The translations under genes and the position numbers were made by a program. This document shows, piece by piece, positions 4,274 to 38,997 of a stretch of 38,997 nt of DNA. How positions within the stretch are numbered: position 1 is the first letter of the stretch; each line of letters begins with the position of its first letter. Origin of the DNA: a virus; IMG/VR virus record IMGVR_UViG_3300033144_006802, positions 1 through 38,997 of that record. One strand, written 5' to 3'. The notes beneath the pieces are model-generated. The model ran no database searches, had not been told where the DNA came from, and worked only from the letters and a program-made list of their open reading frames with translations.

Positions 4274-5287
4274 ATGGGAAGCTCTCTTTTTGAGCCTGGA
4301 CAGCAGGCATTACCGGGACCGCAATTATTAGAGTCAACACAACAAAAATATGGTGCAGAACAAATGCAATCGTTGCTTGCTTCTTTACAGGCCGGGCAGG
4401 CCCCAACCTTAGATATTGAGGGTCTTTCTGCCCTTGAACAGCAATCCCTGTCACTTCTCGGCTCTTTCATAGGACAGGGATTACCTTCCGCATATACAAC
4501 GGCCCTTGGAGAACTTGAAAAAACAGTAGCAGGCGGATATGATCCCGCCAAATCACCGTTATACCAGTCAATGGTAGCGGAATCAGAAAGATTAACAGAA
4601 GGCGGACTGGCGCAGATAGCAACACAGGCGGAACTCGGCGGAATGCTTGGCAGCACCGGCAGAATGGCCGCACAGGGTGAATATCTTGGAGCCACACAAA
4701 ATGAACTTATGCGCCAGCTCGGATTAATGACAGAGGCAGAAAGAGGCAGACAATTCGGTGCGGTACCACTCCTTCTGCAGGCTGGCCAGGGACAACAGGC
4801 CATGCAACTCGGGCAGATCGGAGCGGGCATGCAATATGGACAATTGCCCAGACAGATAGAACAGGCAAGGAGCGAGGCCGCCTTCCAGCAGCAGATGATG
4901 CCTTATACGCAGGGCGCGCAGATAGCAGGACAGCTTATGCAATATGCTCCTTTCTATCAGCCTCAATTCGCACAGACCCCGAGCGGATTTGAGAAAATTG
5001 CCGGTGTTGTTGGAGTAGGCGCTGATTTGGCGTCTATATATAAGGACATCCAGCCAACCCCCCCGCCCCCGAGTCCATCTGATATCCGCTTAAAAGACAA
5101 TATCGTAAAAACGGGAGAAATAGACGGTATAAATGTCTATGAATTCAACTTCATCGGGAATCCCCAGAGATACCAAGGCGTAATAGCACAGGAAGTGAGA
5201 CATATCCCAGGGGTGGTTGTCACTGGGAATGACGGGTTCTTGCGCGTAAATTACAGCAAACTACCTGTAGAATATAAGGAGGTATAA
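4274..5287 (+). CDS. Gln/Ala/Gly-rich virion protein with C-terminal S74-type chaperone
   Basis: A 337-residue protein. Residues 1-245 are a Gln/Ala/Leu/Gly-rich helical segment, followed by a Pro-rich linker (PTPPPPSP) and a short C-terminal domain beginning S269-D-I-R-L-K274. This is the cleavage/dyad motif of the Peptidase_S74 intramolecular chaperone (SDxRLKxNI), with the later VYEFNFIG...GVIAQEV core also present. S74 domains trimerise and then cut themselves off fibres such as endosialidase tailspikes. Here the attached region looks like an internal or tail-tip helical protein rather than a beta-helix spike. It sits just upstream of the internal-protein genes. Confidence 0.7.
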   Translation: MGSSLFEPGQQALPGPQLLESTQQKYGAEQMQSLLASLQAGQAPTLDIEGLSALEQQSLSLLGSFIGQGLPSAYTTALGELEKTVAGGYDPAKSPLYQSMVAESERLTEGGLAQIATQAELGGMLGSTGRMAAQGEYLGATQNELMRQLGLMTEAERGRQFGAVPLLLQAGQGQQAMQLGQIGAGMQYGQLPRQIEQARSEAAFQQQMMPYTQGAQIAGQLMQYAPFYQPQFAQTPSGFEKIAGVVGVGADLASIYKDIQPTPPPPSPSDIRLKDNIVKTGEIDGINVYEFNFIGNPQRYQGVIAQEVRHIPGVVVTGNDGFLRVNYSKLPVEYKEV

Positions 5288-6096: not shown

Positions 6097-9000
6097 ATGC
6101 CCAGTTATCTCGTAACCAATCCTGCAACAGGGTCACGTTTAAAAATAACAGGAGATACTCTCCCAACTGAACAAGAACTTGACGAAATATTTCGTCAGGC
6201 AACTCCGGCACCCGAGCCAACCCCACCGTCGATAGAACAGATAAGAGAACGCGCAAAGAAACAGCGGGCGGAATTTGACGTAACCCCAGTAGAAACCGTT
6301 CGTGGCACTGGACGGACACCGAGCATTTACGAACAAATGCAGGCAGGATATGCTCAATTGCCACAGAAGGAAATAACTCCCAAAATACAACGGGATTTAA
6401 CTCTGCAAAAACAAGAAGCTGATTTTTATAAGAAAGTAGAAGAAGGTAAGAAAACAATGCCCTCTTTTACTGAAAGTAAGGACCACGCCATAAAAGAAAT
6501 TCAATCAGGATATGGTGGCATACTTGAATTTTTAGACAGTGGAGATATGAAAGCCGCATCTGCGGTAATCGATAGGAAAGAACCTATACAGGACACATAT
6601 AAAAGAATTTGGGATAAACATTATGGCGAGCCAAAAAGCACAAGTTTTCTGGTTAATCTCGTAGCGATATCTGGAAAAGAACTTCCGGCGGATAGCATGG
6701 CCCTTTTAACTAACCCTGAAGAAATAGCAAAATTCTATCTATTCGGAAAAGGTATAGGGGCGATACAGTCTTTATTAACAAAATCAGCAATGCGATTGGC
6801 GGTATCTCCAAATTCGACAAGTCGCAATATTGGTCAATTTATATTTAGAGATATAACAAAAAGATTCAAACTTGACCCTGCTCTAAAATCTCAATTTGAA
6901 GCAATCTCAAAAACAAAAAATCCGGCTGAAACATTAAAGGCATTTTTGCAGGATAATAAATTCAGAAGTGCTGTAGGGGAAATGATAACCGGAGAGAAAA
7001 CAAAAGTAGCGCATGACGCATTACAAAAACTAAAAAATATTGATATCAATAGGTATAAACAAGTAACTAAAATACTCAAAAATAAAAAGATATCGGTTAT
7101 GCAAAAAGAACAGATACTGTCAAAAACCATAATTGAAATGAAACAGATCAAATCAATGGCCGGAGATACTAAAATTATAATTGATAATCTATCAAAAGGA
7201 TTAGAGGGGAAAGGAACTGTTATAGTAAATGCCCCCAAACAAACAAAACAACTCATAAACCTTTTAAAAAGTGAGGGACTAACTTCTCGTACTTATTCCA
7301 TGTTGAAAGGTTTGAATGATACTGGTGGATTAAAATTAAAGGGAATAAATGCGTACAATTCCGCAATAAAACAGGTAGTCGCATACATTGAGCAGGTAAA
7401 AACATCCAAGATACCTGAAGCTGTGGTAAGACCAAGTTTTTTATCATTAAAAGACGCTCAATATTACGCAGGACACCCTGAACAATTAGCCAATCTTCGT
7501 AATTTTATAGATACTGGAATAAATACTACAAACTTAGGAACTATCGTTCGTTTTTCCAATATTATGTTTGAGCCAACAAAACCGCCCCCAGAAGTCGCAC
7601 CTGTTGTCCCCGGTGCACCGGAAGCGCCTATAACCGAACCCAAGCCCCCAGAACCGGCAAAAGCCCCTGTATCCGCTCCTGTAGCCCCTACGGGCAAAAT
7701 AACGGAAATCGCCGCAGTAAGAGCCGAAGCTAAGAAAAAAGGCTGGAATGTACAGATATTTGACGGAGACAAAAAGGATGCGGTCGCAAGAGGTATAGAA
7801 ATACAGAAAGCAGGGGAAAAAGTATCAGTAAAAGCCAGCCAGGAAACAGAAGGCCGGTATTATATCATCACCACAGCAAAGAAAATTACGAAAGCGCCGG
7901 TCGAGGCTCCTCCCGCAAAAGCAGTAAAGCCCGCCGAACCCGGGATATACAAGGAGAAAATCACAACCCTCGAAGATGTGAAGGACCGGCAGAAGCGGAT
8001 AAATACGCGCATGTTCACCAGGCTAAAGCGCCTTGCTGACTATATTGTGAATTCGAAGTATATCCCGACCGGCGTAGAACAGGCCGATATGAGACAGGAA
8101 GCATATGTGGCAATAGTTCAGGCGTCTAACAATTACAGGGATTCTAAGGCGCGGAAGATAGGTGTGCCCTTCTCAAAATATGCCGCAAAATATATCAGGG
8201 GGGCAATAGCCGATTTTTATGTAAAAGAAAAGTCTCTGATAGGAATCCCCCGGGAAGACGCGTATCTTCTGCAGAAGATAAATAAATTTGAAACGCAGCA
8301 CTATATGTCAAAAGGTTTTATCCCCTCTGTGGAAGGAGTAGCGCAGAAATTCAATATTTCCGTAGAAAAGGTGGAAAAACTCAAAGCTCGGCGATTTCAA
8401 AAAATAGAAAAAGCCGCTGGCCAAGCCGTAGAAGATGAAGAAGATATAACCGCCGCGGACATAATCGATATCGTTGAAACCCTGCCGGAAGACAAGGTTG
8501 ACAGGGAACGAGATAGAAAAGAATCTTCGGCGAAAGTGGATGAACTGCTCAGTCATTTAACACAGAGAGAAAAACAGATCGTAGAAATGCGCTATGGCCC
8601 TAAATCCGGCGCGGTCATGTCTTTCAAGGAAATAGGCAAAGAACTCGGGATAGCCGGCCAGACCGCAAACAAAGCGCTGCAAGACGCTCAAAAGAAGATG
8701 CTGAAAGCAGACACCCTTAACCTTGCTCCCAAAATAAGATATACATCGGAGGCAGAAAGCGCCATATCAACAGAACAAACGCTACTCTTCGAGAAAGCGG
8801 CCGGACACATTATCTATGAAGAAATTGACCGAGCCTACGGCTCTGTAGAGAAGGCCCGCGACGCTCTCGCGGACCAGATACAATCAGTCAAGGATATTGA
8901 AGGCATAAGCGCGAAAAGAGCAGAAGAAGTCGGGGAAGCCCTGCACACAGGGAAATTCAATTCAATAAAAGGCCTTGTGATTAAAACCGTAAAAGAGGCG

Positions 9001-12000
9001 GCGGCCATTGCCAAAATTATACGCAACCCCGGAATTGAAAATCACATTTTTATTCTCGCTGACGAAAACGGCGTAATAGTAGACGCTGTTTGGCAATCAA
9101 GTTATTTACCACGCTCTATCAGACTAAAAAAGAATATCGAAAACATATGGTCGGCGGAAGAGATAAAAGACGGATACACCGTTTATGATATCCATAATCA
9201 CCCCAGCGAGGACACTCGTCCATCATATTATGACGAAACTGCAATGAACAAGGTGCGGATAGAAGTAAAAAAATTAAACCCCAAAGCGAAGGGAATAGGA
9301 ATAATCGTGAATTCAAAAACAATACATCATCAACTGCCTTCGGGGAAATGGGCACAAAAAGATATATCCGACTTGAAGTTTACAGAATGGGGAAACGATT
9401 TTATAAAAATAACTTCCTATTCGGACGTTGTTCAGATAGCGAAAACTCTGATAACAGACAATCCCGCAAGAAAAGAAAACTCCGCAATCGTTTTATTCGG
9501 GGCGGAAGGCAAGGTCTTTAGTGCCTCATATATGTCAATGTCACAAGCGAGAGACGCTAACTTTTTGAGAGTGCATGCGGCTAAATACGGCGCCTCCAAT
9601 ATCATCGTCGTAGAATCAGAAAAACAATTTGAAGCAAGGCCTAAAAACTCAATGCCTGCAGAATATCACAACAATATTGTCGTGACCGGAAAGGACGGTC
9701 AAATAAAAGATATCTATCGCGACATAGATTTACTCGCGAAGAAATATACACAGGCGGAATCCCCTGACTACTCAGAAGTAAGAAAACTTGCCGAAAGAGA
9801 ACACGACATGTTTGACGCCATCGATAAAACCGGAAATAGAAACACTATCATCCCAGAGCAAAGGGATATAGACGCTCTCGCAAAAAAAGACATGGCGGCC
9901 GCAAAAGAACTTTTGCTCTCGGAGGGAGAAGCGCGCCGATCTATTTTTGATCAAATCCCTAAAATAAATTTTAACTTCCGGGCCTTTGGAAAAAAGACGC
10001 TCAAGGAATCGGGGGAATACAAAGCCCTCCCTATAGAAATAAAAAGGAAGTTTTTCGGCGATCTCGGCGCCGGCGGTGTTTCTCTCGACAAGGCCGCACA
10101 GTTGCTAAAAATGGATGACTCCGAATTATGGGCAATCATAGAATCATACACAAGCCCTAAAGTGGCGATGCCTCACGAAACAAGCCCGGAATGGATCCGG
10201 CATTGGATAGAGCAAACAGATGAAGGACAGAAATATTACGCGGAATACAAACGCGGAGGATTATCTCTTGACAAGCTTTCAAATATCATCAAAGAAAAAA
10301 AGGAAGCCCTCTCGGATATCCTGTTCCGCACGGACGACATAACGCAGCCGTCAGCGAAAGAAAAACAATTTACGTTAACACCAAAGGTTAATATCGCCGA
10401 CAAGTTCAAAAAAGAATTCCTTCCCTTTAATTATCAGGGAATGAAAGCGCAGATGATGCCGTTTATTCTTAATGCTCTCGGACTTAACGAAGATATCGAC
10501 AAAGTTATTAACAAAAAGAAACTTCCCGCAAGGCTAACGGCGCTTGCCGGTCAGATTGACGAAATATATGACGTGTTCGGCGGTTCCGGTTTTACGTCAG
10601 TCTTGATGAATAAACTGTTCCCTGATAAAACCATACACCTGAATGACAAAGATGTAAAGATGTTCGACGTCTGGAACGAGATAGCGAACAATACCGACAA
10701 AGTTTTTGAGGCCGTGAAAGCGTTTGCTCAGTATATACACCAGATAGAAACGCCGGCGAAGTGGTGGAAAGAAATAAAATCAAAATTTGGAGAGAATTTT
10801 TCGGACAATCAGATCTGGGCGGCATACACAATTTTGAGGATGAACCAGGATAGAAGCGTAGACAAAATATCGCTGAAACGTCTGCGCGAGATAATGGACG
10901 CAATCAAGCCATATGCCCGAATGCTCAATAAAGTAGAGAGAACAAATCTGGACGCTGATATAATCTTTGACACCCTGCTGGCCTTGCCACCTGAAAAAGC
11001 GAAGAGGACATGGGCAATATTGGATCCCCCTTATCTTTGGACAACCGGTTACAGCGAAGGAAAGACTTTTAAAAATGCCGACCAAATGATAGATTACCTC
11101 AAAAAATTAAGAAAACTCCATAGAAAAGGCGTAAAATTCATATATTTTAATTCCGAACCGATATCTGTGTTCCACAGGGTAATGTCCACAAATTTAACGG
11201 TGCGGTCAAAGGAGTTGAACGATATCAACGAACAATTAAGCCTTCTGGCCGGAGAAGGTGTCAGCGTATTCCGGCAGGTTGAGCCGTTGCGCGCCGCAGG
11301 GGACAGAAGAGAAATCCTTGTGCATAATATCCCCGGGACCGCCAAAAATATAGAGCAGGCGAAAGAACTGCCTTATAAAAATTTGAACGATTTCATAAAA
11401 GAGGAACAATTCGGCTTTGCCGAACTCCGGGCAGCATATGCCAAAGCCCTCCCTGAAGTAGAACTGCCTATCACCAATAATCAAAGGCGCCGGGTATTTG
11501 GAATTATAAGTCGGCTGACAGCACTCAAGGCCAAAGGCGCAAAAGGCGTGACCTCCCAAATGAGAACTATTTTTAAACTGTTCACGGGCAAAACACGGTT
11601 AACAGACATGACCGAAGCTGACGGGAAAAAACTCCTTGACGGTCTTATGGCCTGGCGGCAGAATTACAAAAAGGTCCGGTCCTTGCTTAACGAGATGAGA
11701 TTTTCCGATGAATCCTCGCGCGAGCGCACGATACGGGAATCCGAACTGCGGGATCATATTTACTTTTACACCGGTAAAAACCGTCTTGAAGAACTTTTCC
11801 CGGATGAAATGGAAGTGCTGCTCACCGGACTTGAAGGCTATCAGGGAATGGATGATTTATCAGCGTTCGGTAATTTGATGACAACCGGAGAAATTATGCA
11901 CGAAGCCGTCAGAAAAAATGAAGATATGTTTCCAGCATGGCTGACATATAAGGCCTTGGGCGAAAAACTCAAAGAAATTCATCAAACTAAAGTGGAAAGA

Positions 12001-13884
12001 CTGGTTAAATTCAAAGCAATTTATAAGGGGATAACTGCCGCTGATAAAGAGAAGATTTACCGCTTTCTCGCGCGGATTAAAACAGGTAAAAAAGCAAAAG
12101 AACTCCATAAAAAACTGCAGCAAACAATGATTGATACCGGAGAGATTACGCCGCGTTTACTAAAAGCCATACAAGATACTCGACTTGAATTTGACGAATT
12201 ATTCGAATTGGCCGATATGACAGAAGAACGATACTGGGGAGATTATCTTCCAAAAATGAGAGAAATCGGCGACTATCTGCTCGCACACCCGGGAGAAGTC
12301 CCTCACCATATAATCAATAATCTTCCAACCGAGTTAAAACCCTTTTTCGAAAATTCGAGAACAATGAACATGGCGAATGAACTGGCAATATATTCATCAC
12401 TTGAGAAGGACCCTGTATTGCTTTACGAACGATATCTGTCCTCCTTATTGCGCAAGACATATCTATGGCCAAAAATAAACGCCTTCCTCCGAACAATCAA
12501 TGTGCTGCCGAAACGATTCCAGGGAATACTCCGAATGGTAATATACGACCTGTCAGGATATAATGTAGATCCATACCCCCTGCTTGTCTTATCACCAGAA
12601 GAATCTGCTTTTATGCAGGATATGCTTGTAGCCACCCGAGATTTAATTTATGGCTACGGCCTTGGCGCCGTAGAATCGGCAGTAAAAAATATTACTCAAA
12701 AATTTCATACAATGGCAGAATGGGGCATATTTTACCGGAAGGCCCGAGTTCTGATAACCAACAGTGCAAGAAGACAGCAGTGCAGAGACGCAAACATCAA
12801 ATCGCTGGGTATGCCGGTAATCGGCAAACAAACAGCGCGGAGGGCATTTTTTCGCAAAATTTCAGATGTAGGCAGAGCGGCGACAATACTATTTAGAGGA
12901 GTTGACACATCAAGCAGATATGAGGCCTACATCTGCGGAATTCTTGCCGCAGAGGAATACGTCCCCCTATTTGAAGCCGGGAAAATAACTGCCGAAGAAT
13001 TGTTCAAAAAATTGAACTTCTCTCTCCGCGGCGAAGGCTACAAAACGCTGGCGAGAAAAATAATAAATAACGACCGGCTTGTCTACACAGAACATTATCT
13101 TGAAGCTACTTTGCCATTGGCCGTGCGCAGGAAAGTGGAAAAATTTATAAAAGACGGAGAAAATATAAAAGCAAAAGTATTATACCTCGGACATCTCGCC
13201 GGATATTCATCGCAGGAAATGACACAATATCCATACTATAAAATAGAGACAGAGGCCTTCTATCGGGGCAGTATTTTCAAGCAGGCCCTCGGTATTTTCG
13301 GAACATGGGGCCCCCGCTGGGCAAATATGGTAAAGAACTGGAGCAGAAGCGGCAATGAAGGAATAAAAGTGATCGCACGGTACACCGCCCTCTGGGTAAC
13401 AGCAACAGCCCTGCTATCAACCGTTGGCGTGCAAGTATGGCGATGGTTCGGCCTCTTTTCGCTTCTTGGTATCGGTGGCGGAGGCGGAACATTCTGGGCC
13501 ATAATCAAAAGGATAAAGGACATCATCGTCAATGCGATCAGGCTTGCCTCTGAAAAAGCAGCAGGCCTCGGCGATAAAGCAAGAGCAAGATTCTTCCGCA
13601 GAGAATTAAAAAGAGCGCTCTCTGAAGATTTCCCCATACCGGGCGGCCGTCAATGGAATTCAATAAAAGAGGCCATAGATACACCAAACCTATCAGTAGC
13701 GGAAACCGTCTCTCTGATGTTCATCCGAGGCATATCCCCAGAGAGTCTACGGGATAAGGCCAGGGATTACAAAATTTATAGACGCTGGCGAAAAACCACA
13801 CATAAACCGGTATCATTCAGCGAGTGGAGATACGATAAGCAGGAAAGACAATACGAAAGAAAATTGAAAGAGGCGGGCTTTTAA
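6097..13884 (+). CDS. Giant polyvalent internal protein: sigma-70-like + JAMM + Dam methyltransferase
   Basis: A 2595-residue protein. In order: an N-terminal short module seen on phage polyvalent proteins (YLVTNPATGSRLKITGD...PTEQELDEIF); a helical region; a Pro-rich linker (about 490-530); and a sigma-70-like segment, with region 2 around D664 (DMRQEAYVAIVQA then FSKYAAKYIRGAI), region 3 about 723-763, and region 4 about 821-868 (LTQREKQIVEMRYG...MSFKEIGKELGIAGQTANKAL). Then a RadC-like JAMM motif H1033-N-H-P-S with S1043 and D1046 (HxHx7Sx2D); a Dam/D12-class methyltransferase with FNYQGMK 1444-1450, DVFGGSGF 1492-1499 and DPPY 1643-1646; long helical regions; and a C-terminal hydrophobic stretch (2429-2475). 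It lies after the internal virion genes. Polyvalent proteins are thought to be packaged and delivered with DNA; delivery is inferred here. Confidence 0.85.
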   Translation: MPSYLVTNPATGSRLKITGDTLPTEQELDEIFRQATPAPEPTPPSIEQIRERAKKQRAEFDVTPVETVRGTGRTPSIYEQMQAGYAQLPQKEITPKIQRDLTLQKQEADFYKKVEEGKKTMPSFTESKDHAIKEIQSGYGGILEFLDSGDMKAASAVIDRKEPIQDTYKRIWDKHYGEPKSTSFLVNLVAISGKELPADSMALLTNPEEIAKFYLFGKGIGAIQSLLTKSAMRLAVSPNSTSRNIGQFIFRDITKRFKLDPALKSQFEAISKTKNPAETLKAFLQDNKFRSAVGEMITGEKTKVAHDALQKLKNIDINRYKQVTKILKNKKISVMQKEQILSKTIIEMKQIKSMAGDTKIIIDNLSKGLEGKGTVIVNAPKQTKQLINLLKSEGLTSRTYSMLKGLNDTGGLKLKGINAYNSAIKQVVAYIEQVKTSKIPEAVVRPSFLSLKDAQYYAGHPEQLANLRNFIDTGINTTNLGTIVRFSNIMFEPTKPPPEVAPVVPGAPEAPITEPKPPEPAKAPVSAPVAPTGKITEIAAVRAEAKKKGWNVQIFDGDKKDAVARGIEIQKAGEKVSVKASQETEGRYYIITTAKKITKAPVEAPPAKAVKPAEPGIYKEKITTLEDVKDRQKRINTRMFTRLKRLADYIVNSKYIPTGVEQADMRQEAYVAIVQASNNYRDSKARKIGVPFSKYAAKYIRGAIADFYVKEKSLIGIPREDAYLLQKINKFETQHYMSKGFIPSVEGVAQKFNISVEKVEKLKARRFQKIEKAAGQAVEDEEDITAADIIDIVETLPEDKVDRERDRKESSAKVDELLSHLTQREKQIVEMRYGPKSGAVMSFKEIGKELGIAGQTANKALQDAQKKMLKADTLNLAPKIRYTSEAESAISTEQTLLFEKAAGHIIYEEIDRAYGSVEKARDALADQIQSVKDIEGISAKRAEEVGEALHTGKFNSIKGLVIKTVKEAAAIAKIIRNPGIENHIFILADENGVIVDAVWQSSYLPRSIRLKKNIENIWSAEEIKDGYTVYDIHNHPSEDTRPSYYDETAMNKVRIEVKKLNPKAKGIGIIVNSKTIHHQLPSGKWAQKDISDLKFTEWGNDFIKITSYSDVVQIAKTLITDNPARKENSAIVLFGAEGKVFSASYMSMSQARDANFLRVHAAKYGASNIIVVESEKQFEARPKNSMPAEYHNNIVVTGKDGQIKDIYRDIDLLAKKYTQAESPDYSEVRKLAEREHDMFDAIDKTGNRNTIIPEQRDIDALAKKDMAAAKELLLSEGEARRSIFDQIPKINFNFRAFGKKTLKESGEYKALPIEIKRKFFGDLGAGGVSLDKAAQLLKMDDSELWAIIESYTSPKVAMPHETSPEWIRHWIEQTDEGQKYYAEYKRGGLSLDKLSNIIKEKKEALSDILFRTDDITQPSAKEKQFTLTPKVNIADKFKKEFLPFNYQGMKAQMMPFILNALGLNEDIDKVINKKKLPARLTALAGQIDEIYDVFGGSGFTSVLMNKLFPDKTIHLNDKDVKMFDVWNEIANNTDKVFEAVKAFAQYIHQIETPAKWWKEIKSKFGENFSDNQIWAAYTILRMNQDRSVDKISLKRLREIMDAIKPYARMLNKVERTNLDADIIFDTLLALPPEKAKRTWAILDPPYLWTTGYSEGKTFKNADQMIDYLKKLRKLHRKGVKFIYFNSEPISVFHRVMSTNLTVRSKELNDINEQLSLLAGEGVSVFRQVEPLRAAGDRREILVHNIPGTAKNIEQAKELPYKNLNDFIKEEQFGFAELRAAYAKALPEVELPITNNQRRRVFGIISRLTALKAKGAKGVTSQMRTIFKLFTGKTRLTDMTEADGKKLLDGLMAWRQNYKKVRSLLNEMRFSDESSRERTIRESELRDHIYFYTGKNRLEELFPDEMEVLLTGLEGYQGMDDLSAFGNLMTTGEIMHEAVRKNEDMFPAWLTYKALGEKLKEIHQTKVERLVKFKAIYKGITAADKEKIYRFLARIKTGKKAKELHKKLQQTMIDTGEITPRLLKAIQDTRLEFDELFELADMTEERYWGDYLPKMREIGDYLLAHPGEVPHHIINNLPTELKPFFENSRTMNMANELAIYSSLEKDPVLLYERYLSSLLRKTYLWPKINAFLRTINVLPKRFQGILRMVIYDLSGYNVDPYPLLVLSPEESAFMQDMLVATRDLIYGYGLGAVESAVKNITQKFHTMAEWGIFYRKARVLITNSARRQQCRDANIKSLGMPVIGKQTARRAFFRKISDVGRAATILFRGVDTSSRYEAYICGILAAEEYVPLFEAGKITAEELFKKLNFSLRGEGYKTLARKIINNDRLVYTEHYLEATLPLAVRRKVEKFIKDGENIKAKVLYLGHLAGYSSQEMTQYPYYKIETEAFYRGSIFKQALGIFGTWGPRWANMVKNWSRSGNEGIKVIARYTALWVTATALLSTVGVQVWRWFGLFSLLGIGGGGGTFWAIIKRIKDIIVNAIRLASEKAAGLGDKARARFFRRELKRALSEDFPIPGGRQWNSIKEAIDTPNLSVAETVSLMFIRGISPESLRDKARDYKIYRRWRKTTHKPVSFSEWRYDKQERQYERKLKEAGF

Positions 13885-20253: not shown

Positions 20254-22125
20254 ATGACACACGAAGACGAAAGAAACTACAAAGCAGCAGACGAAAAGAA
20301 CAAACGGACAGAAGACGCCATCAAACAAGCGGACGAAATCGCAGAGCAAGCCGGGCAAGTATACGACGAACCGACAGACGAATACGGCCAAGCACTCCAC
20401 GTGGGCGACACGGTCAGAGTAGCGAACCACCTGAATAACGACCCATACGGACGGAAAGGACAAACAGGAACAATCATAAAAGACATAGCCGCAAACGCCA
20501 ACGGAACCGTAGTATGCGTCCGTTTCCTACACGACGAAAACAACCGCACAACAGGATACTACCAGCCAGACACGCTGGAGAAAATAAACAACACCGCAGC
20601 CCCTCAAAACCGCCGGAAGGCGGAAAGCGAGGGAAAAATGGGAACAGAACTAAAGGGAGAAAGGGTAACACGCTGGACACACGAAATCTACTCAGACATC
20701 ATCACCAGAGAAAAAGCGGAACGACTGGTCAAAGAAGGGAAAGCCACAATCATGACGGAGAACTCAATCAAACAGGAAGTAGACGCATACGAACCCAAGG
20801 AAACGCCGAGCGAGCCGGAACAGAAAGACCGCGAAACAGCGGAGAAAATCAGAACGATGATGCTGGCAGAGCAACGCGCAAAAGAAAAGGCGGAGCGCGA
20901 CGCAAGAGAGGGAAAAAGCGGAGCGCAGCCGGAGAGGATCGGCTACGACCAAATACAGCACACCCACAAAGTGGGAGACCTGACCGCGACCTACGCAGAA
21001 CTGGTCGACGCACTCGGAGAGCCGGACACCAGCGAGAGCAAAGGCTTCCGCGAAATAGACAAATACAAGAGCGACGCCGAGTGGCGCATGAGGATACTCG
21101 ACACCGTGGTCACAGTGTACAACTACAAGAACGGCCGGAACTACGCCAAGCAGGCCGGCAAAGACACGGAAGACATAACGGAGTGGAGCATCGGCGGACG
21201 GACAGAGAAATCGGCAACCGTCCTGCGGCACTACCTGCAGAACGTCAAAGAAGACGCACACAGACTGAACAGAGACAAAGTCGCAGTAGACGAAATCGCA
21301 GCGCAGGCCGGAGTAATAGACGACGAACCGGAGAAAATCGAACTGGGCGACAGAGTAACCGTAAGCCCCGAACTGACAACAGACCCACACCAGCGCCAAG
21401 GCGAATCCGGGACGGTCACAAACATACAGAGAAACAGAGCAAGTATAGAGGTCACGTTCGAAGAACTAAACGACGGCGACCGCATCGGCTACTACGACGA
21501 GGACGCGCTGGAGAAAACAGAGCAAAACGAGCCGGAGCCAACGCCAAACGACTACCACCAGACAGGCTGGGAAGAAGGCTACGCCGCCGGAATCAAACAG
21601 GGACAGCGCGACACCAAAGGCGCCAGCGACATAGCCTACGACAAAGGATACGATGACGGTTTTGAAGACCACGCGAACCACGGAGAAGACAAGCCGAGCC
21701 GGACGAACGAAATCAAGACAGGACTGGAGAAAAAAAACGCACCAGAGCCGGGAACGCAAGAGGCCGAAGACCACATGAACAAAGCCGTGCTGGCAGCCGC
21801 AGAGACAGCGTCATACATAAAGGGATACGACACTGGGCGAAGAGAACTGGCCGAAGCAAAGAACAACGCATACAAAGACGGCTACGACAGAGGGAACGAT
21901 GACGGTTTCCGAGCAGGAGAACTCCACGGGGAAGCACTGTCAAACAAACCAAGCCGGAGCGACGAAATCAAAACAGGACTGGCTGCGGCAAAAGACGCGC
22001 TGGCGGAATACGCCTCAAAGAGCGTCATACCCCCCAGACCATATGATATCGCAAAAGAGATAGACGATATAGAACAGGCTATAAACACGATAAGAGCAGC
22101 GGTAAAGTTTCGCATGCTGAAATAA
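20254..22125 (+). CDS. Modular T-poor protein with two SH3-like units and GY-repeat units
   Basis: A 623-residue acidic protein. It contains two related modules, residues about 27-112 and 345-425, each with DEIAxQAG...DEP..., a GDxVxV...G..GTV... SH3/KOW-like core, and ending GYY...LEK. Between them (about 230-320) is a compact domain TYAELVDALGEPD...AEWRM...VTVYNYKNGRNY...EWSIGG, a pattern I have seen in phage hypothetical proteins. The C-terminal third has repeated GYxxGxxxG and KPSRxxEIKTGL units. An internal ATG at 20638 (M129) with a copied leader could give a 495-residue product. Base composition is T-poor, unlike the neighbours. No enzyme motif is seen; a nucleic-acid or protein scaffold is possible. 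Confidence 0.75.
   Translation: MTHEDERNYKAADEKNKRTEDAIKQADEIAEQAGQVYDEPTDEYGQALHVGDTVRVANHLNNDPYGRKGQTGTIIKDIAANANGTVVCVRFLHDENNRTTGYYQPDTLEKINNTAAPQNRRKAESEGKMGTELKGERVTRWTHEIYSDIITREKAERLVKEGKATIMTENSIKQEVDAYEPKETPSEPEQKDRETAEKIRTMMLAEQRAKEKAERDAREGKSGAQPERIGYDQIQHTHKVGDLTATYAELVDALGEPDTSESKGFREIDKYKSDAEWRMRILDTVVTVYNYKNGRNYAKQAGKDTEDITEWSIGGRTEKSATVLRHYLQNVKEDAHRLNRDKVAVDEIAAQAGVIDDEPEKIELGDRVTVSPELTTDPHQRQGESGTVTNIQRNRASIEVTFEELNDGDRIGYYDEDALEKTEQNEPEPTPNDYHQTGWEEGYAAGIKQGQRDTKGASDIAYDKGYDDGFEDHANHGEDKPSRTNEIKTGLEKKNAPEPGTQEAEDHMNKAVLAAAETASYIKGYDTGRRELAEAKNNAYKDGYDRGNDDGFRAGELHGEALSNKPSRSDEIKTGLAAAKDALAEYASKSVIPPRPYDIAKEIDDIEQAINTIRAAVKFRMLK
20610..20632 (+). repeat. 23-bp leader repeat, copy 2, before internal ATG 20638
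   Basis: Identical to 20226..20248 and placed at the same five-base distance from an in-frame ATG. Here it is directly fused to the 33-bp repeat (20586-20618), sharing CCGCCGGAA, as if recombination between two such motifs removed the spacer seen upstream. Confidence 0.7.
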
Positions 22126-26649: not shown

Positions 26650-26840
26650 CCCCCGCCGAAAAACAATTGAGATGCCGCGAAATATCAGACAGGATCAGAG
26701 AGGTCTGTCCTGATGTGAGCGAATCCCACCTATTGCGAGATAGTGTGATGATGAAAATCAAGCACAGTGACGGAAAAGAATACACAATTACAATTCACCC
26801 CGCACACAACAGTAAGAAGGAAACAAAAAATGCTGTATAA
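26646..26840 (+). CDS. Small protein upstream of integrase, 64 aa
   Basis: Starts within an ATGA overlap. The sequence MTPAEKQLRCREISDRIREVCPDVSESHLLRDSVMMKIKHSDGKEYTITI suggests a helix pair then a beta hairpin. It overlaps the integrase start by eleven bases. Excisionases are often this size and basic, but no clear excisionase motif is present. Confidence 0.5.
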   Translation: MTPAEKQLRCREISDRIREVCPDVSESHLLRDSVMMKIKHSDGKEYTITIHPAHNSKKETKNAV

Positions 26841-28536
26841 AATAGAGCAGGATTGGTTCGAAAAATACTGCAAGCAATATCCGGACCGAGAAAGGCAGGT
26901 GCGCTACGCCACCGGCCTGTTGGCCAGATCGCAACGAGTAGACAGTTTCCACAAAATTGTCTGGAACACAGTCCAGTTTGAAAAATTCAACAGCTTTATC
27001 GCAAAAAAGAAGATATCCAGTAATTCCGTCAAAGCTGTAAAAAACCAGATAGCACACCTCACCAGATGGCTCGAAAAAAAATACGGGGTGGATTTGAATT
27101 ACCCCATCAAAAAAAACTGGACAGGGAATACAATCCACCTATCCGCCGGCATCAGGAAAATTTTAAAGAAAACAAGATCCCCCCTCATCAAAATATTTTG
27201 CTCTTACCTCGGCAAAATGAACATACCCCTGAAAGCAGTCACGGAAGATAAAGTGAGAAATTTTCTCGGAAATTGCGGCAAAAGAGGAAGTTACAGGAAT
27301 TTCGCAAAGCATTGGAATAGGCTGCATAAGGCCAAATGCGTTCCCCAGAAAATCCCTGTCATAGCAGCCGGACGAATATATTTGAAAATAGACGAATTGC
27401 CCGCACACTTAGAAAAGGAAATAGGTATCTTCAGAAAGTGGTCAATACTTGATGAATTCGAAGTGGCGGGATCTCACAAAAGAAAAGAAATCCGCCCAAT
27501 CACGTTCAAAGGCAAAAGAACAAAACTGCTGCAGTACATATGCTTCCTGAAACGAGTGAAAAAAATAGATATTTCAAAAAAAACATTGCGCAGCCTGCTC
27601 CAGGTCGACGAGTGCATGAAAGCGATAAAAAGAGGGAGAAAAGAAAACTTCAAATGGACGAGGATTGATGAATTTGTAAGTTTTACAAGAGAGCGCTTAC
27701 GCCTGAAAGCAGAGAGTGCCGGAATGCGTTCGGACCAGGCGGGGATAAAGTATTGTCTTGATTTTCTGAAAGCCGTGAGCATGGTTCTGTTGAGGGATTT
27801 TTACGGCGTGCCGGAAAACATGATAATCAACCTCAAAGAGAAGGCCCAGCGCCTCAGCGACAAACACAATAAATACCACATAAAAGAGGAATATATCCCG
27901 ATTTTGGATTCCACCACATACCGGGATCTGCAGAGATTTGAAAATACCCTGTGGAAATTATACCAAAAGGAAGGAAATAAAAAAAAGAAGGCCGAAATCG
28001 GCCTCGTAGCATTTATCGTCAGCCTGCTTATGAGGAGGCCATTCAGATCCCGGACACTCCGAACCATCCGGATAGGACGGAATTTAACCACTCAAAAAAC
28101 CGACACAGGCATGAGCCAAATATTCAGGTTCTTCCCGAAAGAAAATTTGAAGTGTGGCAACGACATTATAGAAATGTCTGTGCCTAAAATCGTAGAACCT
28201 AAACTTAATATATTTTTAACAGAAGCGCGGCCGCTGTTATCGGACAGCAGGACAGAGGATTATCTAATCCCCGGACTCAAGGGCGGAGTTATGTCAGGAA
28301 CATCGCTGCATAATCTACTCGTGCGCTGGTCTTTAAAATTGCTCGGCAAACCCCTGAACCCTCATCTCTGGCGCCACCTGTACGCAACCACCAGGCTACG
28401 CCGGGATTCAAGCAAACTGTACAGCGTGAGCAAAATGCTGATGCATACCACAACGGCCATGACCCAGCGGATATATTCGCGTTATTGCCAGACAGACGTC
28501 GAAAAAGACATAGATGGATTAATGGGAGAAAAATGA
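26830..28536 (+). CDS. int: Tyrosine recombinase/integrase
   Basis: A 568-residue protein. The ATG at 26830 (AAGGAA upstream) is preferred to an earlier GTG that runs through the preceding gene. The N-terminal half has helical core-binding features (EKFNSFIAKKKISSNSVKAVKNQIAHLTRWLEKKYG). The catalytic part shows Arg I at about 406-408 (PFRSRTLRTIRI), the HxxR box H512-L-W-R515-H and the end motif MLMHTTTAMTQRIY549SRY552, where Y549 or Y552 is the nucleophile. It is longer than many phage integrases (350-400 aa) because of an extended middle region. Its presence suggests integration or genome circle resolution. Confidence 0.8.
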   Translation: MLYKIEQDWFEKYCKQYPDRERQVRYATGLLARSQRVDSFHKIVWNTVQFEKFNSFIAKKKISSNSVKAVKNQIAHLTRWLEKKYGVDLNYPIKKNWTGNTIHLSAGIRKILKKTRSPLIKIFCSYLGKMNIPLKAVTEDKVRNFLGNCGKRGSYRNFAKHWNRLHKAKCVPQKIPVIAAGRIYLKIDELPAHLEKEIGIFRKWSILDEFEVAGSHKRKEIRPITFKGKRTKLLQYICFLKRVKKIDISKKTLRSLLQVDECMKAIKRGRKENFKWTRIDEFVSFTRERLRLKAESAGMRSDQAGIKYCLDFLKAVSMVLLRDFYGVPENMIINLKEKAQRLSDKHNKYHIKEEYIPILDSTTYRDLQRFENTLWKLYQKEGNKKKKAEIGLVAFIVSLLMRRPFRSRTLRTIRIGRNLTTQKTDTGMSQIFRFFPKENLKCGNDIIEMSVPKIVEPKLNIFLTEARPLLSDSRTEDYLIPGLKGGVMSGTSLHNLLVRWSLKLLGKPLNPHLWRHLYATTRLRRDSSKLYSVSKMLMHTTTAMTQRIYSRYCQTDVEKDIDGLMGEK

Positions 28537-28998: not shown

Positions 28999-29513
28999 AA
29001 ACTATTGAAATGGAAATAGCTGTTGCTAACCATTTCAATGCACGACAGAATTTGATTGTGCCCAACGTAAGCTGGGGATTTTGTATTCACGAATGTGATT
29101 TGTTAATTGTGACAAAAGCGGGATATCTATACGAGGTTGAAATTAAAGTAAGCCGAGGAGACCTTAAGAATGATATGAAGAAACAGCACAATCATTACGA
29201 TAGCAGAATTAAGAATTTGTATTTTGCCATACCAAAAAAACTTGAAAAAGATATAGAATTTATTCCGAAAGAGGCAGGGATAATGTTAGTTCATAAAAAA
29301 GAAACAGACCCATTATATGCCGCAAAATGGGGGTTGCCTAAAATAACAACGGTTGTAGAAACCGTAAGACCTCCCGAAGACAAAAGTAAATACAAAATAA
29401 GTACTGACGAGCGGTATAAATTGACGAGACTTGCCGCATTGAGAATATGGGGATTGAAGAAAAAAATAGTAAAGTTAATGGGAAAACAGGCGGATCGGAG
29501 GCGCAGGAAATGA
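28995..29513 (+). CDS. PD-(D/E)XK-type nuclease (MmcB-like)
   Basis: A 172-residue protein with GTG start, GGAGG upstream. The core reads HECD35LLIVTKAGYLYEVE49IK51VSRGDLKND, the D...ExK arrangement of a PD-(D/E)XK nuclease, close to MmcB/repair-type or restriction-like families. The C-terminus is basic (LMGKQADRRRRK). It overlaps the cytosine methyltransferase start by ATGA, which could mean a restriction-modification partner or a DNA-repair/processing nuclease. No target recognition domain is seen. Confidence 0.65.
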   Translation: MKTIEMEIAVANHFNARQNLIVPNVSWGFCIHECDLLIVTKAGYLYEVEIKVSRGDLKNDMKKQHNHYDSRIKNLYFAIPKKLEKDIEFIPKEAGIMLVHKKETDPLYAAKWGLPKITTVVETVRPPEDKSKYKISTDERYKLTRLAALRIWGLKKKIVKLMGKQADRRRRK

Positions 29514-30649
29514 CGCACATTGATTTGTTCTCCGGTATTGGCGGATTTGCCCTCGCCGCTCAAACCGTATGGGGCCCGGAATATGAGAACATGCTATTTT
29601 GCGATAACAACAAATTCTGTCAGCAGGTTATCCGAAAGAACTTCGGGAAGGAGAGTTTAATTTATGAAGATGTCAAAGAAATTACAAGGGAACGGGTTAT
29701 TGCCAACACCGACAACAGGCGACCGACGGAGCAAGAACTCAAAACAGCAGGGGATAAACAATGTGATAGAGGGGTTACTTCCAACGCCAAGAGCTGGGAA
29801 TCCCGGAAGTCGTCCAAACAAAAAAGGAGGAAAGATTTTAGCGGAAGTGGTTGCGACCTCCTCACCGGGGGCTTCCCCTGTCAGCCTTTTTCCCAAGCCG
29901 GACAGAGACGAGGCACGGAAGACGACTGCTTTCTATGGCCGGAAATGCTTCGTATTATTAAAGAGTTTAAACCGCTGTGGGTTATCGGTGAGAATGTTAG
30001 CGGAATACTTACTATTGAGGGCGGACTGGTATTCCAACAAATGTGCGTTGATTTGGAGGCAGAAGGTTACGCCGTTCAGCCGTTTATTATTCCAGCTGTC
30101 GCCTGTAACGCTCCGCACCGAAGAGACAGGGTCTGGATTGTTGCGAACTCCGACAGCAAGCGAGGGCGAAGGCGGAGCAAAAACGGACGACAAATACTGG
30201 AACGCAAAGCAGCCGAAACTAAAACTGCGCGACCAGATTGCGAAAGCGGGAATGCTACCGACACCACAAGCACGGGACAGCAAAAATCCAAACACAAGCG
30301 AAACCCCGCGAATAAAAAGAAAAAAAAAGAAAGGATGGACAATAGACCTGAACGACAAAATAGGGATGTTGAACACTCCAAGTACATCAATGTACAAAGG
30401 AGTGGTGAAAAACAAAACAGTAAGGGACAGAACAGACTACGATATAGAGAAAAATCCGGATGGGAGCAAAACTGGCTTGAAGTTGCAACCGAACTTTGTA
30501 GAGTGGATGATGGGCTACCCGTCAAACTGGACGGATTTAAACTCACCAAAGCTGGACACCGAGTAGAGCGGTTGAAAGCCCTCGGCAATGCGATTGTGCC
30601 GCAAGTGGCGATAGAGATTATGAAAGGGATTAAGGAGACAATGAAATGA
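29510..30649 (+). CDS. DNA cytosine-5 methyltransferase
   Basis: A 379-residue protein; the ATG at 29510 has GGAGG upstream and overlaps the previous stop. C5 motifs are present: motif I F7SGIGG12, motif IV GGFPC124QPFSQ (catalytic Cys), motif VI E161NV, motif VIII-like HRRDR (203-207) and the C-terminal RVERLKALGNAIVPQVA (motif IX/X). It transfers methyl from SAM to C5 of cytosine. The segment between motif VIII and X, where the target recognition domain should be, is low in complexity and strongly Lys/Arg/Asn-rich. Much of the gene is shared in the +1 frame with another conserved coding sequence. Confidence 0.8.
   Translation: MTHIDLFSGIGGFALAAQTVWGPEYENMLFCDNNKFCQQVIRKNFGKESLIYEDVKEITRERVIANTDNRRPTEQELKTAGDKQCDRGVTSNAKSWESRKSSKQKRRKDFSGSGCDLLTGGFPCQPFSQAGQRRGTEDDCFLWPEMLRIIKEFKPLWVIGENVSGILTIEGGLVFQQMCVDLEAEGYAVQPFIIPAVACNAPHRRDRVWIVANSDSKRGRRRSKNGRQILERKAAETKTARPDCESGNATDTTSTGQQKSKHKRNPANKKKKKERMDNRPERQNRDVEHSKYINVQRSGEKQNSKGQNRLRYREKSGWEQNWLEVATELCRVDDGLPVKLDGFKLTKAGHRVERLKALGNAIVPQVAIEIMKGIKETMK
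29664..30566 (+). CDS. Overlapping +1-frame gene nested in the cytosine methyltransferase (LPTP/EWxMGYP family)
   Basis: A 300-residue frame lying wholly inside the methyltransferase gene, with its own AAGGAG (29648-29653) ten bases before ATG. It repeats GLLPTPTTGD, GLLPTPRAGN, GLLRTPTASEGEGGAK and GMLPTPQARDS, contains RADWYSNKCALIWRQKVTPFSRLLFQLSPVTLRTEE, and ends NFVEWMMGYPSNWTDL. Arrays of LPTPxxxD followed by EWxMGYPxxWT occur in a phage protein family associated with Dcm-type genes. Repeated conserved motifs in this frame cannot be a by-product of the other frame. Function unknown; perhaps target recognition or a partner subunit. Confidence 0.65.
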   Translation: MKMSKKLQGNGLLPTPTTGDRRSKNSKQQGINNVIEGLLPTPRAGNPGSRPNKKGGKILAEVVATSSPGASPVSLFPKPDRDEARKTTAFYGRKCFVLLKSLNRCGLSVRMLAEYLLLRADWYSNKCALIWRQKVTPFSRLLFQLSPVTLRTEETGSGLLRTPTASEGEGGAKTDDKYWNAKQPKLKLRDQIAKAGMLPTPQARDSKNPNTSETPRIKRKKKKGWTIDLNDKIGMLNTPSTSMYKGVVKNKTVRDRTDYDIEKNPDGSKTGLKLQPNFVEWMMGYPSNWTDLNSPKLDTE

Positions 30650-31590
30650 TATACACCGGCGAAGCATTGACGGTGCTGAAAACATTACCAGCAGAGAGTG
30701 TAAATTGTGTTATGACATCGCCGCCTTATTGGAGTATGCGGGATTATGGAGTGAAAGGACAACTCGGGCTTGAGCCGACAATTCAGGAATATATAAATAA
30801 TCTGTGCGATATATTTGATGAGGTTAAAAGGGTGTTGAGAAACGACGGCACCTGCTGGGTGAATTTGGGAGATACGTACAATAATTCGGCTCCCGGGAGC
30901 CGTAATAAAGCACGCTGGCCTAAACAATCAAGAAATGATCATCAACCCAAAAACAGAAAAATATTGAAGACCATCGGAAAGAAATGCTTACTTCAAATAC
31001 CGTCACGCTTTGCAATAGAAATGTGTAATAGGGGCTGGATCCTCCGCAATGAATTGATATGGCACAAACCAAACGCCATGCCAGAAAGCGCTAAGGATAG
31101 ATTTACTATGGATTTTGAAAAGATATTCTTCTTCGTAAAGAATAAGAAATATTGGTTTGAGCAACAGTTCGAGGCTATAAAACTGGAAAGTATAAAAAGA
31201 GAAAGACGTGGAAATAAAGAAAACAAATATTCAAAAGACCAACACCTGCCGCCCGGAGTTCACGCTAATACAATGAGTCAGACTCGGAAATATAAGGGAT
31301 ACGATGGCATTGAAGAAGAATTTAAAAATAGAAAAGGGCGTAACATGCGCTGCATATGGAAAATCTCATCGACCCCATGTCGCAAGAAACACTTCGCGGT
31401 GTTCCCAAAAGAATTATGTATAACGCCGATACAGGCGGGTTGCCCGAAAGGGGGAATTGTTTTAGACATGTTCACAGGAGCAGGCACAACCGGGTTGGTT
31501 GCCGCGAACCTCGGCAGGAAATTCATAGGGATAGAATTAAACCCTGAGTACGTGAAAATTGCAGAAGAGAGGATCAAGGCAGAGAAATGA
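30646..31590 (+). CDS. DNA methyltransferase, TSPPY type (N4-cytosine or N6-adenine)
   Basis: A 314-residue protein coupled by ATGA. The catalytic motif T24SPPYW29SMRDYG is near the N-terminus and the SAM-binding motif V272LDMFTGAGTTG near the C-terminus, the beta-class order. The C-terminal helix FIGIELNPEYVKIAEERI is typical. TSPPYW favours N4-methylcytosine, but some members make N6-methyladenine. The central part (residues 75-240) may recognise DNA. It follows the cytosine methyltransferase, giving the phage at least two different marks in addition to the Dam-like domain of the giant protein. Confidence 0.8.
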   Translation: MIYTGEALTVLKTLPAESVNCVMTSPPYWSMRDYGVKGQLGLEPTIQEYINNLCDIFDEVKRVLRNDGTCWVNLGDTYNNSAPGSRNKARWPKQSRNDHQPKNRKILKTIGKKCLLQIPSRFAIEMCNRGWILRNELIWHKPNAMPESAKDRFTMDFEKIFFFVKNKKYWFEQQFEAIKLESIKRERRGNKENKYSKDQHLPPGVHANTMSQTRKYKGYDGIEEEFKNRKGRNMRCIWKISSTPCRKKHFAVFPKELCITPIQAGCPKGGIVLDMFTGAGTTGLVAANLGRKFIGIELNPEYVKIAEERIKAEK

Positions 31591-32262: not shown

Positions 32263-32291
32263 TTGACAGATTTTTAAAATTATATTAGCCT
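32263..32291 (+). promoter_or_regulatory. Promoter candidate for packaging/structural genes
   Basis: TTGACA (32263-32268), 17 bases, TAGCCT (32286-32291), followed by a GGGAGG site and the ATG at 32311. A/T-rich spacer. Same layout as at 23663. Confidence 0.5.
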
Positions 32292-38349: not shown

Positions 38350-38997
38350 ATGAAAAAGCTTTTGAACTTTTTTCTGATCATTCTGATCATGTTTTTCGCA
38401 GCATGGGCAAGCGCCGCGAACTACATCAATTACAATTTTGTGATAGTCGACGAGAACAACGATCCAATCACAAGCGGAGTGAATGCCTACATTTACAACA
38501 CATCGGATAGCTCGGTGACACTGAAAGCCGACCCCAGGGGGAACACTGCCAAAACTAACCCTGTGTATGTGACAACGAATGGCTCTTTGGTCTTTTACAC
38601 GCAGGAACCATCGCTTAACATCGTAATCGCCGACACCCCGACAGTGACGCGTACAATGAAATGGACGAGTGTGCCCGTAACAAAACACCGTCTCGTTTTC
38701 CCGAAACCGTTTAACTCAATCGTGGTAAATGAGTCCGTCACGGTCGAGGGAACATTAGCGGGCTCTGATGTTACAGCAACCTACGGTGTATCTGGTGCGA
38801 CTTTTGCATTCACCGGAGCAGGAGCAGCGGCCACAATGAACACCGGACAGGGCGATAATGAACTCTACGCCATGAATCAGGATGTGGAAACCACTGACGA
38901 CGTTACCCACAGAAATGTGGCTGCAACCTATGGTGTATCTGGTGCGACTTTTGCATTCACCGGAGCAGGAGTAGCGGCCACAATGAACACCGGACAG
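38350..38997 (+). CDS. Repeat-containing fibre protein, 5' part with signal peptide
   Basis: CGGAGG upstream of ATG. The 216 codons in the window encode a Sec signal peptide (MKKLLNFFLIILIMFFAAWASA), a beta domain (about 24-115, YNFVIVDENNDPITSGVNAYIYN and SLVFYTQEPSLNIVIADTPT, like a fibre-attachment domain with a bacterial-exported look), and the 49-residue repeat from residue 143. The gene continues at base 77 after circularisation. The signal peptide implies export and cleavage before assembly, or a moron-like surface protein. Compare the fibre at 14360. Confidence 0.75.
   Translation, partial: MKKLLNFFLIILIMFFAAWASAANYINYNFVIVDENNDPITSGVNAYIYNTSDSSVTLKADPRGNTAKTNPVYVTTNGSLVFYTQEPSLNIVIADTPTVTRTMKWTSVPVTKHRLVFPKPFNSIVVNESVTVEGTLAGSDVTATYGVSGATFAFTGAGAAATMNTGQGDNELYAMNQDVETTDDVTHRNVAATYGVSGATFAFTGAGVAATMNTGQ
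38776..38922. repeat. 147-bp tandem repeat unit (49 aa), first copy
   Basis: Copies start at 38776, 38923 (equal to base 2) and 149 (partial, diverging after ATYGVSG). The first two copies differ at about seven positions, most of them synonymous or conservative. This suggests recent duplication and selection on the peptide MNTGQGDNELYAM(N/D)QDVET. Confidence 0.85.
38922..38997. repeat. Terminal direct repeat, right copy (identical to 1..76)
   Basis: All 76 bases equal the start of the window and remain in the same codon phase. This supports circular closure of the contig, within the caveat that the ends fall in a tandem repeat. Confidence 0.9.

Follow-up and report, generated by a model that had tools for sequence, protein, structure and literature searches.

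A sigma-70 domain embedded in a 2595-residue polyvalent phage protein, a possible virion-delivered initiation factor

Immediate takeover of host transcription is achieved by phages that bring in a whole polymerase, as in the N4 and phiKZ types, or a modifying enzyme, as with T4 Alt, and it is the virion RNA polymerase of N4, a polyvalent-type protein, that jump-starts early transcription in that phage. Injection has been proposed for polyvalent proteins (Iyer et al. 2017, PMC5512222), and the 2017 survey of them uses the word "sigma" 0 times and reports RadC domains only in polyvalent proteins of conjugative elements (PMC5512222). In phage JC1 the 4515-aa DarB-like protein gp69, encoded after the tail genes, was present in CsCl-purified virions with 51 unique peptides (PMC9144972); the group of JC1, the Bcep22-like podoviruses, has portal and capsid homologs in common with the window, by which we mean the whole 38,997-nucleotide stretch of DNA analyzed here. 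An earlier note on this DNA knew of no well-described virion-delivered sigma factor, and a phrase search of open-licence papers, which is weak evidence of absence, likewise returned no virion-carried sigma.

The window comes from a small tailed phage, and the present study analyzes P0002, a very large protein that it encodes, and the sigma-70 domain within it. The protein and its parts are as follows.

6097 to 13884, plus strand: polyvalent protein P0002, 2595 aa, an open frame without stops and the final gene of the virion-structure block
7576 to 7701, plus strand: proline- and alanine-rich linker, residues about 494-535, before the sigma domain, seen in the sequence and flagged by the composition scan at 496 and 511
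7951 to 8712, plus strand: embedded sigma-70 domain, residues 619-872 exactly, from profiles, PDB search, AF2 and Foldseek/VIA-align
8971 to 9636, plus strand: RadC-like JAB domain, residues about 959-1180 (Pfam RadC 0.0047, below cut-off)
10402 to 11331, plus strand: Dam-like DNA adenine methyltransferase domain, residues about 1436-1745 (TIGR00571 6.6e-6, phrog_56 3e-13)
13381 to 13470, plus strand: hydrophobic stretch near the C-terminus, residues about 2429-2458, seen in the sequence, with a similar stretch in the ortholog described below

By its architecture and its place in the genome P0002 is filed as a polyvalent protein. Several disparate domains lie in one large polypeptide, in the order sigma, JAMM/RadC-like, Dam-like methyltransferase, and the gene adjoins late virion genes, so that the earlier description of a 2595-aa polyvalent protein is borne out. 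The RadC-like domain has a complete JAMM motif, HNHPSEDTRPSYYD, at residue 1033, which is kept in the ortholog too, and the methyltransferase domain has both FGGSG and DPPY motifs. No named LPD or other listed polyvalent hallmark domain scored above the Pfam cut-off in the pieces of P0002, a hallmark LPD-type domain being usual, not obligatory, for a phage polyvalent protein. The hydrophobic C-terminal stretch is probably membrane-seeking. A motif scan found no HExxH protease motif in the chain, and the sigma domain would therefore have to work tethered within 2595 residues or be cut out by another enzyme.

Profile and sequence matches far beyond chance identify residues 619-872 as a genuine sigma-70 domain. 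When the excised domain was compared with Pfam, Sigma70_r4 (4.4e-10, 39.4 bits, cut-off 24.1) and Sigma70_r4_2 (1.2e-6, 28.5 bits, cut-off 25.7) were above threshold, but Sigma70_r2 was slightly under (1.7e-4, 21.8 bits, cut-off 24) and Sigma70_r3 was under and partial (1.4e-3, 19.2 bits, cut-off 25.3, model positions 3-40 of 78), and of the Pfam models named in the earlier note that of region 4 reached its cut-off. The case for sigma-70 is carried by full-length models that are collinear across regions 2 to 4, namely TIGR02997 (NCBIfam Sig70-cyanoRpoD, E 4e-21), RpoD_Cterm (1.1e-20) and FliA_WhiG (5.4e-18), together with TIGR02937 (3e-16, 59.5 bits), which exceeds its curated cut-off of 42.9. 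A phmmer search of PDB returned 57 distinct sequences, all of them sigma factors or their fragments (best 2.7e-12), and the RpoD/SigA matches, at about 3e-12, align from region 2.1 into region 4.2. The domain lies under every subfamily cut-off among those listed; it scores 74 bits with RpoD_Cterm, against an RpoD/SigA equivalog cut-off of 354. Region 1.1 is absent, and no region 1.2, which that equivalog has, could be recognised; alternative sigmas of group 3 are alike in this, and the domain appears to be of an alternative, group 3-like type.

Structure prediction was consistent with these matches. AF2, run on an alignment that included 17 stand-alone viral sigmas, gave a model of pLDDT 74.4 and pTM 0.47 whose top Foldseek matches were sigma chains, and region 4 of the model superposed on region 4 of the T. 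aquaticus sigma (1ku3) over 60 residues at 1.3 A (1.1-1.3 A overall). With just the two embedded sigmas in the alignment the model was of low confidence (pLDDT 60.7), and the PDB matches listed for it were again sigma chains or models holding them. Whole-chain TM was about 0.25-0.30 in both models, and the relative placing of the domains is unreliable. The sigma-70-like factor that the earlier note had placed at these residues, with region 2 followed by 3 and 4, is thus confirmed by TIGR02997, TIGR02937, PDB and AF2/Foldseek, and the sigma fold that it expected was found; its word "complete" is right for regions 2-4 but not for region 1.

The regions and their residues were as follows.

8053 to 8250, plus strand: region 2, residues about 653-718, ADMRQEA...FSKYAAKYIRGAI, from Pfam Sigma70_r2 and alignments
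8251 to 8538, plus strand: region 3 and the acidic 3.2 stretch, residues about 719-814, from a weak Pfam Sigma70_r3 match and alignment
8539 to 8712, plus strand: region 4, residues about 815-872, LTQREKQIVEMRYG...FKEIGKELGIAGQTANKAL, from Pfam Sigma70_r4 (4.4e-10)

With RpoD numbering mapped onto the domain by alignments, the equivalents of D403, Q406, E407, F427, Y430 and R436 are kept, those of D403 and Q406 in both embedded sigmas and that of E407 in P0002 alone. Two further features are retained, the acidity of the 3.2 stretch and the LTxRE at the beginning of region 4. Region 2 shows the changes W433 to K, W434 to Y and Q437 to G, and the W-W pair is gone in both phages. The recognition helix of region 4 is unlike that of RpoD; the -35 readers R584, E585, R588 and Q589 have become G, Q, N and K, and the classical readers are replaced in both phages. 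Judged from alignment, the core-binding residues of region 2.2 appear to be present and the core-binding positions overall partly kept, so that of the -10 and core-binding residues on which the earlier note had made its claim depend, the D, Q and E equivalents of region 2.2 stood and the W433/W434 pair did not. Alternative sigmas usually differ at DNA-reading residues, and the changes therefore suggest a specificity unlike that of RpoD and are not proof of lost function.

The genes of the window run in the order TerS, TerL, portal (P22 type, 1e-91), MCP, a fibre-like gene, an SU10-type adaptor and structural genes, and onward through a Peptidase_S74 protein, a 268-aa protein, P0002 and an 841-aa fibre-like protein to lysis. 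The two genes before P0002 are these.

4274 to 5287, plus strand: Peptidase_S74 structural protein (Pfam PF13884), in the same order in Rhizobium phage RHph_Y1_10
5290 to 6096, plus strand: 268-aa protein between the S74 protein and P0002, identified by synteny, in the slot of "injection protein" 1 of RHph_Y1_10

Because this order is the same in RHph_Y1_10, the Peptidase_S74 gene marks synteny with "injection protein" loci. No family match was found for the 268-aa protein, and the slot of P0002 itself is also annotated "injection protein" in RHph_Y1_10. In Shewanella phage X14 that slot holds a polyvalent protein with LPD38, and in those related viral contigs with sufficient sequence it is occupied by long ORFs (1411-2030 aa) that for the most part do not resemble one another. 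These comparisons, with JC1, support by analogy the view that the slot holds virion proteins, and delivery of P0002 in the virion is likely. At L111:1894-7986 (minus strand, G012) a related phage has a 2030-aa polyvalent protein with a zeta-toxin kinase (3.5e-16) and RadC (1.9e-15) by Pfam; this is RadC in a phage-type polyvalent protein, a domain restricted to conjugative elements in the 2017 survey.

There were several other observations on the genome. Positions 1-76 and 38922-38997 of the window are identical 76-bp ends, and since the end ORF runs through in a single frame once one copy is removed, the record is probably a complete, circularly permuted genome of about 38.9 kb (38,921 bp); the ends sit in a duplicated fibre motif, and an assembly overlap at the repeat is possible. 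The 841-aa protein beside P0002 (14228-16753) has 297 C-terminal residues that are 53% identical in the ortholog contig, beginning with a GGGSGDMTKA..VDNVQKR motif that was seen in 17 viral contigs and is probably a fibre trait, and this gene used as a query gave short-motif matches only. A 623-aa ORF at 20254-22125 has an extremely A-rich strand (AT skew 0.6-0.67) and is partly matched at 27375-28445 of the ortholog contig. Besides the methyltransferase domain of P0002, a pair of neighbouring DNA methyltransferase genes, assigned to different PHROG families, lies at 29447-31590. The unusually long 589-aa protein at 26767-28536 has a weak, C-terminal-only match to tyrosine integrases (phrog_216 5e-8, Pfam 1.9e-4), and a temperate lifestyle is possible on the strength of it.

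A scan of bacterial genome contigs revealed a phage-like contig, VMTI01000114.1, that is a closer relative of the window (MCP 58%, portal 45%, adaptor 51%) than the records gathered by capsid. It encodes an ortholog of P0002 of 2483 aa, 30% identical over 1321 aa (E 5e-150), that embeds its own sigma at residues about 535-785 (TIGR02997 9e-27), has a RadC match of 6e-11 and keeps the module order of sigma, JAMM, methyltransferase (DPPY) and C-terminus. An identical copy is present in another MAG from the same group at phylum level and may be one contig binned twice. Identity between P0002 and the ortholog is 26-28% for sigma (r2 34%, r3 15.8%, 3.2 33%, r4 31.5%) and 40% for the Dam-like methyltransferase domain, and the HTH is present in both embedded sigmas. 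The sigma domains are about as diverged between the phages as the rest of the protein, which suggests that the fusion is old in the lineage or that the sigma has been exchanged, and an intact frame at 26-28% sigma identity points to purifying selection. A chimera or frameshift artefact was rejected, the ortholog being collinear. In the tree the branches of the embedded sigmas were too long (5.7 and 4.3 changes per column); the two were not demonstrated to be sisters, but sisterhood was not rejected (p-AU 0.148), nor was a placing with RpoD (0.328). Direct support is available for the domain with its full and ordered set of regions 2-4, for its retention in a second, diverged phage and for its place in a virion module.

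Only two embedded sigmas of this kind are known. In a set of relatives sharing the capsid type, collected with an MCP alignment, 0 of 49 records, many of them fragments, had a sigma-70 match, so that among about 50 capsid-related phages a sigma was found only in the window phage and VMTI01000114.1. None was embedded among 80 other viral sigmas, a pattern-limited sample in which all lay in ORFs of at most 806 aa, and alignment scans with the two polyvalent proteins or the two embedded sigmas produced no third case. Scans of viral contigs with the single proteins P0001, portal and P0002 gave no matches, the portal alignment was too diverged as a query, and tblastn of the polyvalent pieces against phage records found stand-alone sigmas only. 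Matches in YerA41 (E 2) and BS-TP4 (E 0.7, on the wrong strand in a giant gene) were dismissed as chance. The family phrog_351 (928 positions), considered as a family of long embedded sigmas, was rejected as the RpoD family, matching 13 of 14 control genomes.

The window also has promoter-like sites of host type. Two of the three plus-strand sites of the form TTGACA-N16-18-TAnnnT fall in the 3.4 kb of intergenic DNA (shuffle P 0.0004, for a post hoc pattern); both are TTGACA-N17-TAnnnT, one before TerS and the other before the replication gene, and the ortholog contig has TTGACA-N17-TATAAG ahead of its TerS.

32263 to 32291, plus strand: TTGACA-N17-TAGCCT, host-type promoter-like site before TerS (start 32311), the pattern having been chosen after the sites were seen

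With these sites before TerS and the replication gene, two key operons look readable by host sigma. A general promoter scan of 13.5-33.4 kb, with 35 sites against 26.4 expected, was uninformative.

The reading that we prefer is that P0002 would travel in the virion and enter the cell with the DNA, where its sigma module would bind host core RNA polymerase through the surfaces of regions 2.2 and 4 and, its DNA preference altered, load that polymerase onto the incoming phage DNA, which the neighbouring methyltransferase module may protect. Packaging, injection, core binding and promoter choice are steps that we infer, and we would give this reading a little under an even chance. The further proposal that such a virion-delivered sigma redirects the host's RNA polymerase ahead of all phage gene expression is made a little more tentatively. 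Evidence on core binding and DNA reading is mixed, since the -35 readers and the W-W pair are changed and host-type sites are present, and this complicates the proposal of a promoter switch; even so, a delivered sigma could act at early promoters elsewhere, or work by polymerase capture or competition. Capture by itself is a less likely but live alternative, in which the injected domain would bind core polymerase and compete with host sigmas (shut-off) or tether polymerase to the entering DNA, tethered transcription helping to pull the genome in and phage promoters being read by the host's own sigma. It would account for the better retention of core-binding positions in region 2.2 than of promoter-reading ones, for the two intergenic TTGACA-N17-TAnnnT sites and for a sigma domain in a chain with a putatively membrane-seeking C-terminus, but not for the observation that the DNA regions 2.3/2.4 and 4.2 are also kept (F427, Y430 and R436 equivalents, HTH in both, r4 31.5%); moreover, DNA-reading residues normally vary in alternative sigmas, so their change proves no loss.

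It is improbable that P0002, as a late product, remains in the cell that makes it or has a role in assembly, its sigma driving late or maturation transcription undelivered. In related phages virion proteins occupy this slot, and fusion with methyltransferase and JAMM domains is the polyvalent pattern tied to entry; against this, the gene lies in the late block and would be made with late transcription, and the phage sigmas described in PMC7824862 and PMC13282480 act inside the producing cell. If anything slightly less probable is a relic or re-used fold, in which the sigma domain would no longer work with polymerase and would serve an ejection protein solely in DNA binding or structure. The very long branches of both embedded sigmas, the poor conservation of region 3 between the phages (15.8%) and the loss of several key residues are consistent with such a relic. 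A free relic is not expected, however, to retain what both copies keep at 26% identity, that is regions 2-4 in order, the 2.2 D/Q pair, the acidic 3.2 stretch and the HTH.

With these findings the modules of polyvalent proteins come to include a domain for transcription initiation, and since the arrangement is present in two diverged genomes and the domain borders are defined, both core binding and the choice of promoters become accessible to assays with ordinary purified proteins. If delivery of the sigma domain with the DNA is true, it would be a third and cheaper route to immediate transcription takeover. P0002 resembles the surveyed polyvalent proteins (PMC5512222) in being very large and multidomain, adjoining virion genes and having RadC/JAB-like and Dam-like domains, and is unlike them in carrying a sigma domain. 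That domain shares collinear regions 2, 3 and 4 with the group 3 sigmas (FliA/WhiG, SigB/F/G) and the C-terminal half of RpoD, and differs from them in being embedded at residue 619 and in its changed recognition helix and W-W pair. Like the stand-alone phage sigmas (T4 gp55, SPO1-type, jumbo-phage RpoD-like) it is phage-encoded and would redirect the host core enzyme, but those have genes of their own, expressed in the infected cell, whereas this one is embedded. On the preferred reading P0002 would be, like the N4 virion RNA polymerase, a polyvalent-type, virion-carried component of transcription acting in the earliest phase; N4 brings a whole polymerase, whereas P0002 would bring the initiation factor alone, and would thus be a counterpart of the N4 enzyme that uses the host's own polymerase.
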